Program-made: the position numbers and the translations under genes
From: Sialis fuliginosa
Taxonomy: Eukaryota > Arthropoda > Insecta > Megaloptera > Sialidae
DNA: 64,000 nucleotides
Assembly: GCA_961205875.1 (NCBI GenBank)
Contig: OY540811.1
Span: 15,679,248 to 15,743,247 of the forward strand
Direction of reading: 5' to 3'
Notes under the pieces: generated by a model
Seen by the model: only the letters and a program-made list of their open reading frames with translations
Database searches by the model: none
Told to the model about the DNA's origin: nothing
In this document: in pieces, positions 28,801 to 57,200 of the stretch
Numbering within the stretch: the first letter of the stretch is position 1
Layout of the letters: each line of letters opens with the position of its first letter

Positions 28801-30306
28801 CGATAACCTAACTTCAGAGGAGACACTTAAATGTCGAATGTTTTATCTATATATTATCAGATAAGAATTACAGATTTTTTTTTAGATTTTACAAGCTATA
28901 AAATAAGTTTTTAATTAAAGTTAGGTCACAAATAACTGCAGATAATTAATAGCTAACTTTGTTCAAATCAGATCTATACATTTTTTAGATTTTACAAGTT
29001 ATAAAATAAGTTTTTAATTAATAGTTAACTTTGTTCTTAAAACAATATTTTCTAGATATAAAAATAATAAAAAGCACTTAAGAAATAAATTTCGCTTTTA
29101 ATTTGGAAAATGATCGACTTAATGAGAGATGTCATTAATGTTGTATAAATGGGTAAACAGCATTTGTTAAAGCTCAATAATCTACCAATTAGCTGATCAC
29201 AATATGGGGTTTTTGATCTCCCCCAAAGTTATTATAACCAATTTTCTACCCTTTGTGTATTTAACTTGATGATGTGGGGAAATATATCCCTAGAAGGAAT
29301 GTAGTTTCAAATTTACAATTTAATTTATTTAATGTTATCGTTTAAAATAATTAACTACACAAATTATATTATTTTTTTATATTTTACTTATATGTATATA
29401 TTTTTTCATAAAACATAATAAATACCTATATACATAATTTGTACTTTCAAAAATATTGAAATAAGCTTATGAACATCGGACTTTAAAATAATGTATATAG
29501 TTTAAAATATTTAATGACATTTGTTAAATATTAAGACAAATATTGCTGTTTATAATTTTAAAATTAAATATTAATTCATATTTAAGAAATAATATCTAAA
29601 AATATAGCTTCAAAACATCTCTTGCCAAAAATAATATTGGTAGTAACTTTTTCTAAAGAAATCCATCACATTATTCTTTTAAACTTTATGAAAAAAATAA
29701 ATAAGTAGAGCTAATTTTTCAATAGATTCGAATTATTTAATTTATTTAATTATTGTTAAATCGTCATCAACAATAAAATACAGGATATTCACAAGATCAT
29801 TCTCAGCATGGGGATCTCCGTTATTATAAGATATGCAGATTCAATTAAATTGATTTAAAGTTTGTACGAGAGGCTATAGTATTAGTAGTTTTGATGCTTC
29901 TCCCCAAAAACAAAAAAAATGCGATATTCTTTGTTTTGTTATAATTTTTTGTTCAAAGGTTATTATTTAAGAAAAATTTTCAACTATATTTACCTTTTTT
30001 TGTTTTTGCTCTATATACTTTCTATATTTTTCTGTTACAAATTATAGTGACCTTTTTTTTGCTCTGTACTTACAATTGTTTGTATTTTTCTTTCTATTTA
30101 CAATTTTCCAACTACGCAAATTAGCGTTTACAACTATACTTTTTAATTTTTGGAACTGTAGAAACAAGCTACAACTACGCAACCTATAAAAATTTAAAAA
30201 TTATATTTACAAATCTTAGTTAACACATTATTATTATTCTGTGGTTAATACACAATATTATTACTGCTGGAAAAACGGAGAAACTGTGGTTTCTTAGTCT
30301 GGCACC
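25896..30306. other. AT-rich region with a GC island
   Basis: No supported gene. About 27,095-27,330 is a sharply GC-rich island (GGCCACCC, GCGCGCG, CGCGGCGAGGCCGCC) in otherwise AT-rich DNA. It could be a transposon end, a promoter or a decayed exon. Positions 27,445-27,488 form a 44-base palindrome with one mismatched pair. Positions 26,375-26,530 match 4,570-4,720 inverted. A C-run of about 11 bases lies near 28,387. Confidence 0.45.
27445..27488. repeat. Near-perfect 44-nt palindrome
   Basis: The central 22 bases (AACATTAATAA and its complement) are a perfect palindrome. The flanking TCAATCAATA and TATTGATTGA extend it, with a single C/A mismatch on each side of the core (27455 and 27478). 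Confidence 0.8.
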
Positions 30307-30358
30307 GTCAGGCTCCTGATGAGGACTTCTTGTGAAGTCGAAACACGTGTCAAGTGAC
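30307..30358 (+). ncRNA. Hammerhead ribozyme motif in a dispersed repeat
   Basis: The elements of a type I hammerhead are in order. Core box CTGATGA is at 30316-30322. Stem II is ACTTC/GAAGT with loop TTGT. GAAA is at 30340-30343. A minimal stem III (CA...TG around CG, or C...G around ACGT) leads to cleavage triplet GTC (30349-30351). Stem I pairs GTCA (30307-30310) with TGAC (30355-30358) across a two-base bulge, plus T-A and C-G next to the core. The first stem I pair is a C/A mismatch, so this copy may be weak. The flanking sequence (TGTTTATTGTGGTTAAGG) matches the copy at 55,418. Such motifs are known in Penelope-like elements and retrozymes; the host element here is not identified. Confidence 0.65.
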
Positions 30359-33300
30359 ATTGTTTATTGTGGTTAAGGTGAATATTTCTAGTTTAAGTCA
30401 CAATATTATTATTAATGTTTTCAATAAGTTACCATAAAAATACCTAAATAAGGTTCTGTTTTTGGGGAAATATCTGTATCTAAAACGTAATTCTTTTATA
30501 AAATGTGACCATACTGTAGGTACATACTAACAATAGTTTATGTATGATCATGAAGTCGTTCTTCTCAATTCATTAATGAATATTTTATTTAAAAGAAATT
30601 AAAACTCACTATGAGAATTTATTCTATCTTAACAAATCGAAGTGGCTATGCTAGCTGACGTTTTCATTTCCTTCATTCTGTCTCCTTTTACCCCACTTCC
30701 TTCGTGCCTGTCTGTCCTCACGTCACTGCTAATGGTATTTTCCGTTGGATGCATTTACTGTACTTCTCTCTCACTTGAAATCTAAGCAATAAACAGAGAC
30801 AGCGATATTTTATATGTTTTGTAGTGTATAAAATATATTTTGAGAATACCATGTTATATCATGTTACGAACATGTTCTTACATTTCTGATGACTTCTATT
30901 CTACGTATGGGTTTCTGGAAAAGTGTTGTTTTCTTTTCTAGGCATGCAGTTTACAGTTGAAAGATATATATTACTTATATAAATTCAGTGACAAATTCAG
31001 ATATAAGTACAAAATAAAAAAAATTACAAGTGAAGTCTAATTTTTCGCAAATTCTAAAAAATAAATAAATAATGAGTTTTTTTTGTTTATTAATTGATTT
31101 TTTCTATACATATATTAGTTTGATTAAGTAAACATTAAAAATAATAATTATATTTTCTAATTTGATTTAAAAGAGAGCGCTCTAATTGTATAATGACTGG
31201 TATTATAAAAGAGTTAACAAATTTTGCTTCAAATGGGGTATTAATTATGTAATAGTATCTATGGATTAGTTATGGAATTGAGAGCAGTGATACTTCAACT
31301 TATTGTAACATAGTTGGCGACTCTGACCGTACAAAATAATTTTCATAATATCACCATTGTTTTAATACTGTTGGTGTTTATATACCACGCGTGCACGAAA
31401 ACTATCAAACATTTCATCATATATTAAACATACTAGTATGTTTAATATATGATTTCATGCAACTTAAAAGGATAACTGTCAGATAGGTTTGAAACCTCAT
31501 TTGGAAGTGCTTGCTAGCTAGCAAATTTTGGTAGCTCATTTTACTCATTTATAATACCGGACATAAGTATCGTGCTCTTCATGCTTGTGTGAAATAAGCC
31601 GTCACTGGTTTCTAATAAAAATAGAGGAAACAGAATAAATGAACACCTTATTAAAATTATTGGTACCTAATTGTCTAGTAAGGAAGGTTGGTACCCAGGG
31701 CGGAATTTTTCACAAATATTAAAAAAAATGTTTTATTTATTAATTTTATGTAGGTGAATTTTCTCTTTTTTCGTTGTCAGTTCAATTTTGGCGCCTACTA
31801 AAAATTACTTTTGCGCCCTCCTGCAGTTTGTGAAGACTTTTTTAGTCCTCATGTCACTTTTTAATCTTCATCAAGTTCATCTACCTCATTTTGCCACCCT
31901 CTCCCAGTACCTTGGAACCTAGGACAGACCACTCCACACACCCCCTTTTAATTCGGTACTCTTCCAACATTCATTGAACATAAATTCCATGCTTACATTT
32001 TATATTCTCACTCCTTCTATGCATCCAATAATTCTGTTGTTACTTTGATTAACTTGTTTATCTAAAATATTCCTCACCTTTGCCAGCGAAGATTAAGGGT
32101 AACAGATATTGCCCTAATCATAGTTATAGTATACTACTTTATTTTAATTTACGTGTTTCATATATACAGGATGTCCAAGATAAACGTGAAAATCATTGTA
32201 ATAATTTATTGTTTTGATTGTTGTTATTGTGACTTTTGTTTAATAATTTTTGGTTTTCATGGCCTACTTAAAACTTTGTAATAAAATACTTCAGTAGTAT
32301 TTAATACTTCGACTTTTTTTCGAAAATAAATATGACAAGTGACATATCGTTCTAACTTGTAAAATAGAGTAAAAAACACGTTCAAATATGATATAGCCAA
32401 CTATATGGCCTATAAGAAAAACTTAGTTAGGACTTATAACTTGGAAACTAACCTTGAGTTGCATAAAACAAAATTAATCACGATTAGTTAATCAGTTGTT
32501 TTAAAACCATTATTACGTTAATTCTAAAAAACAATCACAGCTATGATAAATTTTATAAGGTAAACAATTATCATATTAAGTGAATTGTTCATTTACAAAT
32601 CGAAATTAAGTTTAGAATTAACATTAATCATGATTTGAAAACAACTGTGGTTAATTTTGCTTTATGCAACCCGAGGTAAATTGTGATATAAACATGTATA
32701 CTCGGTGACCGGTGTCGGCATAGTAGACAAGTATCAATTTATTTTAACATACTTTTTTTTAATAAGGAAATCAGGGTTACATAAATTCAATGTGAAATTC
32801 AAACGTAGATTTAGGCAGTATTTGAGGTAAGTACTACCTACTATTTTAAATATATGTATTAAAATAAAACAGGGCGTTTCTTCTATATGAAGAACGTGTA
32901 GATATTACCTTATTTTATCTTTTAACTGTTAAATAGTCATAGGTTTACATTTGCATATTAAATATTTAAACAATGATACAAAAAAGAAAGGATGGGCTGT
33001 ATTACTACATAAATTATACCTAAGTACGGACCATAGTAAATTAAATAATATCATATTTATTATTTTTTTAATTTCTAGGTACAACGCATGATTTAAATTT
33101 AGCTTGCAAAAGCGAAAACGAAAATATTGAATTAAAAAATAATTTTTAAATTATTTGTATCGTATTAATCAATAATAGTAAGAATATAAACGTTTACAGG
33201 AAATATATCGCAGGAAATATAAATAAAATTATCTTATTTACATTTATTTTATCGTTTGAAATATTTGTATCACAACAAATTTCAATTAAAAACGAATTAT

Positions 33301-54256: not shown

Positions 54257-57200
54257 TTAAATAACAGCTTTTAATTCTATATAACCATTTATTCCTTCCC
54301 TGATTTGACTATGGATTCTCCAAAAATTTGCCCAAAAACCTGTTAAAATCTTTCTATTTTCTTTATTTGTAATAGTTATCTTCAAAGTTTTTACTCCGGT
54401 TTCTATGTAAGATATTGATTCTTCGATATTGTTTGTTATATTTTTACAACCATTTATTATTAAGTTTTGAATTGGAGGTTTATGTTCTAAAAGTTGACGT
54501 AAAGATAAAAACGTCAAGTCTTCATTAAAAGATAAGTCCAATGTATGTATTTTTTCTGATTTCGATAAACATCTGTAATAAAATTTTTTTAAAATACCGT
54601 ATTTATGTAGATAAATTCTTACTGACCTTAATAAGTCAAAAAGTTCATAGTCCGTTACTTTGCATTGTGATAAATTGATATCTAATAAGTTTTGTGCATT
54701 TCCTCTTGCAATCAGTGTTGCTAATTCTTTAGCAGCACCTCCTTCACTTGCTGTCACTCCCCTCAGATTAATTTTCTTAAGGTTTTGTTGATTAATTTCA
54801 TTTAAAATGCACTGCAAATTTTCTTTTTTGATATTATTTCCTTCTAAATCAATTTCTTCCAAGTGTTGTAAGTTAAGTCGACTATTTTCATAAAGACTAG
54901 TTGTAGATTTAGATATAATTTCCGAAAAACCTAACAAAAGTTTCTTTAGTTGTACATTTTTTGTTATGATACTTAAATGACGAATGGCTGTTTCTTCAAT
55001 AACAGTAAATCGTAAATTTAAACATCTAAGCTCCGGTAAAATATGTTCAGTTGCATTTAGAAACATTTCTGCTATTAAACTTAAACCTTTAGAAGTTATC
55101 AAGTTTAAACTTAAATCTAACACTTCTAGATGTTTCATTGTTAACAAACTCTCACATAAATATTTTATACATTCATCAGTTAATCTATTTCCTGATATAT
55201 TAAATTCTTTTAAACTGTACTGATGATTCAATGCCTTCAAAACTGGAATTATTTCATCATCATTTAAACCTAGATCATTTAAACTGAGAATTCGTGTTGC
55301 TTGACATTTATCCAACTGTTTTAATATACTTTGATTTTCATCTAAAATATAAAATAATTTGTTTAAAAATAGAAAACTTAAACTAAATATATATATACCT
55401 TAACCACAATAAAACAATGTCACTCGACACGTGTTTCGACTTCACAAGAAGTTCTCATCAGGAGCCTAACAGTTCCCTGGAACTGTTAGGCTTCTTATGT
55501 TTTAATGTGGTTAGTAAAAATAGAAAAGTTTAGAAATGCTATAAACTCACAGTTTTTCTTAGTTTTGCAAACATCTAAATATCTTTCCGATAACGAAGGT
55601 AAATTCCATGACAAAACTTCTGATTTCAGTTCTTTATCGTGAACTATTAAACTTACAGGATCATTATCATCTAATATAGCACCATCAATAGTTTCTAATT
55701 GTAGTACGGGCCTTATCCCTTCCTTACTGAAATATAAAATATAAGTCATGAATGAAAAAATTAATAAAAATAATACAACGTATTTACCTGTAATATCTAT
55801 TTGCTGCTTCTTTTGCAAGCCATTCAATTGTTAAATTGTTAATATTTGATGAAGGTATTGGAATTTTCCACATTTTGTTTTCTATCCTAATATTAATACC
55901 AACTAAATTAATTTGAGTATTCAAAGAAGGGCTTGTTGAATCTTGCTGATATTGAGTATTTGAAATCCTATTAGAAGTATTACGTTGCGATAACGGAATA
56001 CTACTTCGTTCCCTACTAAATCCTGCATCTATTAATGAAAGTTGATGTTTTCTTGGTTTATGTGAAGTATTGCTATTAAATGATGAAGATCGAGGAAATG
56101 ATATTGAAGTAGTAATAGAGTCATTCGATGATTCATCATCTAACGAAATTGTTTGTGAAGTTATTTTAGAAGGTATTTCATCGAAATCACATAAGCTTTT
56201 TATTACTTCTGGGTCACTCTTTCTAGGACTCTTTTTATTGTTTAAGCTTAGTGGTATTTTATCACTAAAGACAGAATTTAGTGATTCATTTGATGCATGT
56301 TTTGATTTGTCAAGATCATTTTTTCTCGGTGTTTTATTTGTGAAACTTGTAGAATATCCATCCAATTTTCTACGTTTTTCTTTATTACTTATATCTACAT
56401 CAATCTCTAACCAATTTTCTTCTGATTCATTAACAAGAGCTGATTTTTTTACTGGTGTTTTTTTAAGAGACCCACACTGTGTCGGTAGACGTTTACGAAT
56501 ATTTGCCATAACTTTTTGATACTCTTTAGCACCTTTGAATTCATTTCGTTTATTAGAAGTACTGGTTGATGTTGATGCATATGAATCATTACTACTATCA
56601 TCAAGATCAAGATCCCTTCTATGCCCTCTTTGAAAAAATCGATCATCATCTGTTTCATATTCATTTATACTTCTTTTTCTACCTGATCTATATTTCTTTT
56701 CACTGCTATTAGATAATGTTTTGATCATGTTTTTATGTCCTACTTTATCAAGAGCCGTTTGTAATCGAGCACAGATAGAATTATAAAAAGTGTTAGTGTT
56801 ATCGTCGATATCTGTAGTATTTCTCCAATTATGTAATATATCAAGAACTGTTAATCCGTCATCTGTCTGTACAGTTGGAATAGCGCCATTATCAAGTAAT
56901 ACTTCTATCACTTCTATATGACCATTCGAAGCTGCATCGTGCAAGGGTGTCATTCCTAAATTACATTATTAATACATTATATTAATATACTATTCATTTT
57001 AATAGGAGTTAATTTTTTTACCATTACAAAAAGTTCCTCCACGATCATTAACAGCAGCACCTTTCTTGATTAAAGCTTCTACGATTTCTTTATAACCCCC
57101 TATAGCGGCTTCATGTATCGGAAGCCAACCAGCATTGTCACGGACATTTACAGTGTGACCTTGATCAAGAAGTCTCTGTACTAATGTCAGATTACCAGAA

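Follow-up and report, generated by a model that had tools for sequence, protein, structure and literature searches.

Introduction

Penelope-like elements (PLEs), such as Penelope of D. virilis, Pen2/Pen3 of A. vaga and Poseidon PAc of Anolis, couple a reverse transcriptase (RT) to a GIY-YIG endonuclease and carry inverted pseudo-LTRs arranged head-to-head. In the available excerpts of PMC3846280, they are further characterized by an optional one-sided tail of about 31 bp, a short target-site duplication, a TATA box and an initiator within the pseudo-LTR, and a palindrome at the junction. Type I hammerhead ribozymes in PLE pseudo-LTRs have also been described, usually as minimal forms without helix III and tertiary contacts (excerpts of PMC6155905 and PMC7761336). 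For the Anolis PLE, the accessible part of PMC11167929 reports two RT start sites bounding the tail, with both target strands cut and extended; in vitro, the start site was the same for both strands, and the PLE protein did not need ribozyme cutting. Hammerheads with a two-pair helix III capped by a tetraloop are found in invertebrate non-LTR retrozymes, which form a small RNA (PMC7229834, in excerpt), and hammerheads in the RECK and CTCL introns of amniotes are reported as conserved (PMC6155905, in excerpt).

Here, we analyzed a hammerhead motif in an intron of TONSL from Sialis fuliginosa, within a stretch of 64 kb that we refer to as the window, and traced it to a PLE of the same genome. 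The family shares the PLE features named above, including a type I hammerhead in the pseudo-LTR and, as we propose, two start sites and the use of both target strands. Compared with known PLEs, leader-only copies predominate among those examined (30/37 tail arms), a tail at one end marks nearly every two-ended copy, the duplication is mostly 12 bp, and the tail holds no ATG by our reading. Nearly every copy has two different ends, in contrast to the common start site of the Anolis protein in vitro, and a 2-bp helix III and the stem I bulge have been kept. The helix III resembles that of the retrozymes, but the copies in our samples are not tandem and are linked by sequence to a PLE. Like the amniote hammerheads, the motif is intronic, but it sits in a dispersed mobile-element insertion. 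The literature that we searched, outside which many relevant papers lie, gave no account of dispersed ribozyme-bearing PLE leaders and no description of unequal inner ends as a priming test.

A type I hammerhead motif in an intron of TONSL

The minus strand of the window encodes TPR, ankyrin and LRR domains in that order, which fits TONSL; we take this order to be the TONSL architecture. One of its introns (55342-55550, minus strand, 209 nt) has GT-AG ends and keeps the reading frame, as read from the sequence. Within this intron, in sense orientation relative to TONSL, a type I hammerhead motif occupies 55418-55471 (minus strand) and presents a complete core made up of CTGATGAG, stem II, CGAAAC, helix III, GTC and stem I. 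The stretch from CTGATGAG to CGAAACACGTGTC covers 55426-55461 of the minus strand, and the predicted ribozyme cut would fall between 55426 and 55425. The type I hammerhead consensus is CUGANGA, GAAA and UH; these elements, stems I, II and III, and an open stem I are all present. The first-pass annotation had placed a sense hammerhead core in a TONSL intron, and the sequence, the Rfam alignment, a pattern scan and the domain order all agree with it. Stem I has the 3+5 pairs described there, arranged around a GG bulge, while the clean 5-bp stem II has to be redrawn as a G-C pair, a 1-nt bulge and 5 pairs (6 pairs in total). Helix III consists of 2 pairs.

The Rfam model Hammerhead_1 (RF00163) aligns end to end at 55467-55420 with 21 bits (E 0.0057, 161 nt searched). 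This lies under the curated gathering score of 34 bits, and the motif thus fails the formal covariance threshold. The first-pass annotation had counted such a result against its own reading, along with an absence of other genomic copies of the same core; the latter clearly does not apply, as many copies were found. No Rfam family exceeded its gathering score anywhere in the 64-kb window, and no hammerhead covariance match at E up to 5 was obtained in 18 loci searched together. The core pattern occurs twice in the window, at 55426-55461 (minus strand) and 30316-30351 (plus strand). In 100 dinucleotide shuffles, 0.00 core matches were expected and none (0/100) reached two, which rules out a chance motif.

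As a separate observation, an ATG within the core CTGATGAG, in the window core and in the plus arm of locus L002, starts a 12-codon frame whose TGA stop lies just past the cut. In the Anolis PLE, the main ORF begins at hammerhead stem II (PMC11167929, accessible part).

The motif belongs to a dispersed insertion

The hammerhead lies within an insertion of 135 bp (55380-55514, minus strand), delimited by a flanking duplication. It is a PLE leader copy with two inverted arms, the second of which is truncated, and without a tail. A 16-bp direct repeat with one mismatch surrounds it: the first copy of this target-site duplication, TAAAAATAGAAAACTT, at 55364-55379 is identical at 15/16 positions to the second at 55515-55530, found by repeat search. 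Without the insertion and one duplication, the intron would measure about 58 nt. Alignment with other copies identifies an intact arm 3' of the ribozyme that terminates at the no-tail end (55380-55417, minus strand), and a remnant of the second inverted arm, ATGTTTTAATGTGGTTAG, follows at 55497-55514 (plus strand), where the sequence resumes at leader index about 65 (L001). The TONSL-intron hammerhead therefore came with a dispersed PLE leader insertion and is not a feature of TONSL, leaving the TONSL-specific, regulatory ribozyme of the first-pass annotation without support.

The head-to-head junction of both arms forms a hairpin at 55456-55499 (minus strand; repeat search and folding), with 21-nt arms that are 90% complementary; it covers stem I on its 5' strand. 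The first-pass annotation had predicted such a competitor for a stem I strand, and it exists, but it is a remnant of the inverted repeat of the element rather than an evolved switch that could turn the ribozyme off.

The second copy in the window (30264-30398, plus strand) has its tail on the left, the core at 30316-30351 and an arm on the right. Copy analysis places a 13-bp target-site duplication, CACAATATTATTA, at 30251-30263 and 30399-30411. In this copy, the stem I pair beside the cut is a mismatch (CTC versus AAG).

Predicted folding of the intronic ribozyme

In the TONSL copy, the ribozyme fold was predicted at -22.3 kcal/mol versus a minimum of -46.6 kcal/mol, tertiary contacts lying outside the model. 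The predicted penalty of forming the ribozyme, 24.3 kcal/mol, is the same whether the element or 206 nt of the intron is folded. For a free leader, the active fold reaches -22.8 versus -38.8 kcal/mol, so that other folds are preferred by 16 kcal/mol, again with tertiary contacts outside the model. Furthermore, the hairpin at 55456-55499 is transcribed in full before most of the core and occupies the stem I strand. Because this upstream hairpin hides one ribozyme strand, cutting of TONSL pre-mRNA appears unlikely, and the folding predictions lead us to expect little or none. The ribozyme in TONSL is probably inert baggage, its stem I strand locked in the hairpin.

Copies across the genome

Copies were collected from the genome to which the window belongs (392 Mb, 20 contigs). 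A 120-bp query gave 1,132 candidates; the 40 that were scored all matched, in 82 matched stretches including the TONSL copy itself. With an 82-bp query from the sequence downstream of the ribozyme cut, we obtained 1,421 candidates, 40 of which were scored, and 40/40 matched at 100% over 82 nt. Three places were common to both searches. To judge by these matches, the copy number is large, and the near identity of the copies points to a recent spread. An exact-match scan of prokaryote genomes with the tail and one of viral contigs with the core found nothing.

Two samples were drawn. The first comprises 41 copies (25 distinct loci, 15 further places and the second window copy, 5 overlapping loci having been dropped), and its query contains the hairpin, which favors palindromes. 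The second comprises 37 of the 40 places of the 82-bp search, the other 3 being already in the first sample, and was not chosen for the ribozyme. Its query starts at the cut, which excludes tail arms ending beyond the cut, while an end exactly at the cut would still be visible. The exact core was present in 39/41 copies of the first sample, with one per strand in 17/41, and in 25/37 of the second. Among 37 arms with a complete ribozyme region (out of the 52 arms of 26 copies), 2 substitutions fall on the 13 core positions and 18 on the remaining 63 that precede the AT run, counts from which core conservation cannot be judged because the query that found these copies itself contained the ribozyme.

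Most copies of the first sample consist of two inverted leader arms, giving an element of about 230 bp and low GC content. One end bears a tail of about 35 bp and the opposite end stops at TTTAGTTTAAG. By automatic call, the tail was found at exactly one end in 33 of the 35 two-ended copies (35 of 41 copies are two-ended), a count that includes L025, which is probably single-armed and miscalled. The two exceptions are L018, with a divergent tail on one side, and the single-armed L039. The target-site duplication measures exactly 12 bp in 17/35 and at least 9 bp in 29/35, a length that mismatched flanks, our control for chance, reach in 1.7% of cases. The TONSL copy itself has no tail, and its two duplication copies differ at one position. 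The tail holds GAAAC-CACA-GTTTC, a small hairpin with an AC-rich loop that resembles, by eye, the AC-rich stem loop where the Anolis PLE starts reverse transcription (PMC11167929, accessible part). Throughout both samples, the copies are inverted pairs or single arms, and no direct tandems were seen.

Two particulars of single loci may be recorded here. At L038 (1033-1627), two copies share the same duplication and a common downstream flank, which amounts to a local tandem duplication that includes flanking DNA, and the AT run of one arm differs in length between them. In the copies at L091, L100 and L088, fragments of the PLE body, rearranged or inverted, occur in the upstream part.

The leader derives from a Penelope-like element

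Several copies are longer. In the second sample, 7/37 extend more than 20 nt beyond AGTCTGG into a common upstream sequence, whereas 30/37 tail arms do not. This upstream sequence contains a TATA box, TATATATA, whose first base lies 31 nt before the A of the initiator TCAGTC. A distance of 31 nt between TATA box and initiator is a usual arthropod spacing. The leader RNA would accordingly begin with AGUCUGG (AGTCTGG in the DNA), where the palindromes are centered, and would carry the type I hammerhead within the 56 nt at its 5' end, followed by the arm and then the tail.

At locus L122, an RT-like ORF and a GIY-YIG-like ORF lie upstream of an identical 138-nt leader. The former matches RVT_1 (E 2.6e-12) and has 35% identity to the RT of another PLE of the same genome. 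The latter matches the endonuclease of that other PLE (E 6e-7) and ends 34 nt before AGTCTGG, although a Pfam search of this ORF returned no GIY-YIG match. This locus is broken, with the RT and endonuclease ORFs in different frames and the 5' side rearranged. The longer copies join the leader to the 3' end of a PLE, in the order reverse transcriptase, GIY-YIG-like domain, TATA box, initiator, hammerhead, arm and tail. The upstream RT, the GIY-YIG-like ORF, the TATA box and the initiator identify the leader as a PLE pseudo-LTR. The source locus thus supplies an RT and a GIY-YIG-like endonuclease, and the family shows inverted pseudo-LTRs, a one-sided tail and a target-site duplication, the TONSL copy itself being tail-less. 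Among the copies examined, none is a full-length, intact copy of this PLE and none continues past the tail into an ORF start; we therefore infer both the order of leader and ORF start and how far apart they lie. L123 contained no part of the element.

Other PLEs in the same genome

A search with the RT of another PLE returned 489 candidates, of which 120 were scored; many have open frames near 896 aa. PLEs with these frames form head-to-head tandem arrays on contigs 3, 5, 7, 10 and 11. More specifically, the array on contig 10 consists of six minus units followed by four plus units, and that on contig 7 of 5 minus then 4 plus units with a period of about 3.56 kb. Such arrays are what one would expect if multi-unit cDNAs had been primed from both strands of the cut. 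In 30 other PLE loci, the leader sequence had no significant match (best E 0.042 over 37 nt).

Further details of these families were noted. In two groups (L057-L071 and L072-L078), the ends show the same two alternatives as the leader element, with or without a tail, and the tail reads like an ORF start (MVIY...). The array ends often lie beside (TA)n runs, which the leader element does not use. With a loose pattern and by eye, minimal hammerhead-like motifs without helix III were seen in the pseudo-LTRs of L051, L054, L057, L068 and L072, some with the altered cores CTGAAGA or CTGAGGA. The first bases of contig 7 (L079) carry the telomere repeat CCTAA (TTAGG); a TTAGG telomere repeat fits an arthropod.

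Formation of the inverted copies

To understand how the copies arise, we compared their arms and ends. In 32 first-sample copies with both arms, 24 variants are common to both arms, compared with a mean of 5.2 and a maximum of 12 in arm shuffles. Sharing beyond chance suggests one template, or templates from one locus. The private deviations between arms number 27, more than the common ones, and are read as later mutation.

The inner ends are informative in the second sample. In the 25 copies with both arms, these ends lie more than 10 nt apart in 21 and within 5 nt in 4 (Spearman -0.02). The second arm is absent in 12/37 copies within the short stretch fetched, and some of these arms may lie beyond it. 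Inner ends fall at the inferred RNA start (-4 to 0) in 11/37 tail arms and 8/25 other arms, and at the ribozyme cut (54-58) in 0/37 and 1/25, respectively; microhomology makes these positions uncertain by a few nt, and the tail arm of L110 ends at index 53, just outside the 54-58 interval.

Two ideas suggested by the first sample were abandoned. There, resumption points lie beside the cut, at 56-60 in 5/15 and at 56-65 in 9/15, which hinted at ribozyme-cut templates; the ends of the second sample at 54-58 (0/37 and 1/25) do not support this. Likewise, all incomplete first-sample copies except the second window copy contain a 16-28-nt fold-back. Fold-back was dropped as an explanation, given that the first query contained the hairpin and that the second sample has many hairpin-free junctions.

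The pattern of ends is consistent with two separate cDNAs made from both cut strands on uncut RNA. In this it agrees with the in vitro behavior of the Anolis PLE protein, which extends both cut strands from two internal start sites without needing ribozyme cutting (PMC11167929). As we picture it, the PLE protein would cut both target strands about 12 bp apart, and reverse transcription would start from each cut 3' end at either of two internal sites, the tail end or the arm end. The template would be the same RNA or sister RNAs, and the two cDNAs would then be joined head-to-head. With priming inside the RNA and close to its 5' end, a single-unit mRNA would yield the leader only, and templates starting upstream would yield the longer copies.

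Discussion

Taken as one joint explanation, the origin of the insertion from a PLE leader, priming at both target strands, and a ribozyme that belongs to the element and is probably inert in TONSL have our firm, though not complete, confidence. We lean, with a good deal more reserve, toward a stricter form, in which the labor is divided obligatorily (one strand always using the tail site, the other always the no-tail site), the cut is staggered by about 12 bp, both strands copy the same uncut RNA, and the hammerhead does not make the template.

Under the reading of the first-pass annotation, the intronic hammerhead is functional: it cuts TONSL pre-mRNA and thereby tunes the TONSL level, with the hairpin as its switch. 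This would account for a canonical sense core in an intron with a hairpin present. The motif was brought by a dispersed mobile element, though, most of the core is transcribed only after the hairpin has been completed, and folding puts the ribozyme 24 kcal/mol above the minimum; we regard this reading as very improbable. Only slightly better placed, and still very doubtful, is a metazoan retrozyme, that is, a small non-autonomous hammerhead element spreading via a circular RNA made by its ribozyme. About 230 bp, low GC, a type I hammerhead and many copies would suit it, and most of the classical type I hammerheads in animals reportedly belong to retrozymes (PMC7229834, in excerpt). Yet the copies in both samples are inverted pairs or single arms without direct tandems, a PLE RT and endonuclease adjoin the leader in one continuous sequence, and arm ends accumulate at the inferred RNA start rather than at the cut, so that cut RNA would not be the usual template. 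Least credible of all, to the point of being negligible, is a DNA-transposon MITE that captured a hammerhead. Short length, an inverted repeat and many copies recall such elements, but the tail on one side makes the ends unequal, the duplication varies in length, and there are single-armed and upstream-extended copies as well as continuity with an RT. Both the MITE and the retrozyme readings were rejected on the ends, the duplications and the RT continuity.

The strongest of the competitors, although itself unlikely, concerns how the inverted pairs form, namely by one cDNA folding back to prime itself (or on antisense RNA), a route hypothesized for rotifer PLEs (PMC3846280, in excerpt). Palindromic centers in many first-sample copies and the variants shared between arms speak for it, but the palindromes come from a sample drawn with a hairpin-containing query. 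The inner ends of 21/25 two-armed copies in the second sample differ by more than 10 nt, and the tail is one-sided. As fold-back would predict equal ends and two tails, the unequal ends and single tail disfavor self-priming and leave priming at both cut strands as our preferred route.

What appeared to be a ribozyme story of a single gene thus becomes an ordinary insertion, and intronic ribozyme motifs need to be checked as possible mobile-element cargo. The family also provides an instance of short hammerhead elements whose PLE source can be identified, a link that a review of animal hammerhead elements only proposes (PMC7761336). Its near-identical short copies provide sequence evidence on self-priming versus priming at both cut strands and on the role of the hammerhead in making the template, and together amount to a natural data set on PLE integration. 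If the stricter form is true, internal priming near the 5' end of the mRNA would explain why most insertions are dead-on-arrival leaders that carry a ribozyme. It would also explain why full PLEs in this genome are found in head-to-head tandem arrays, as a full copy would need read-through or a multi-unit RNA.
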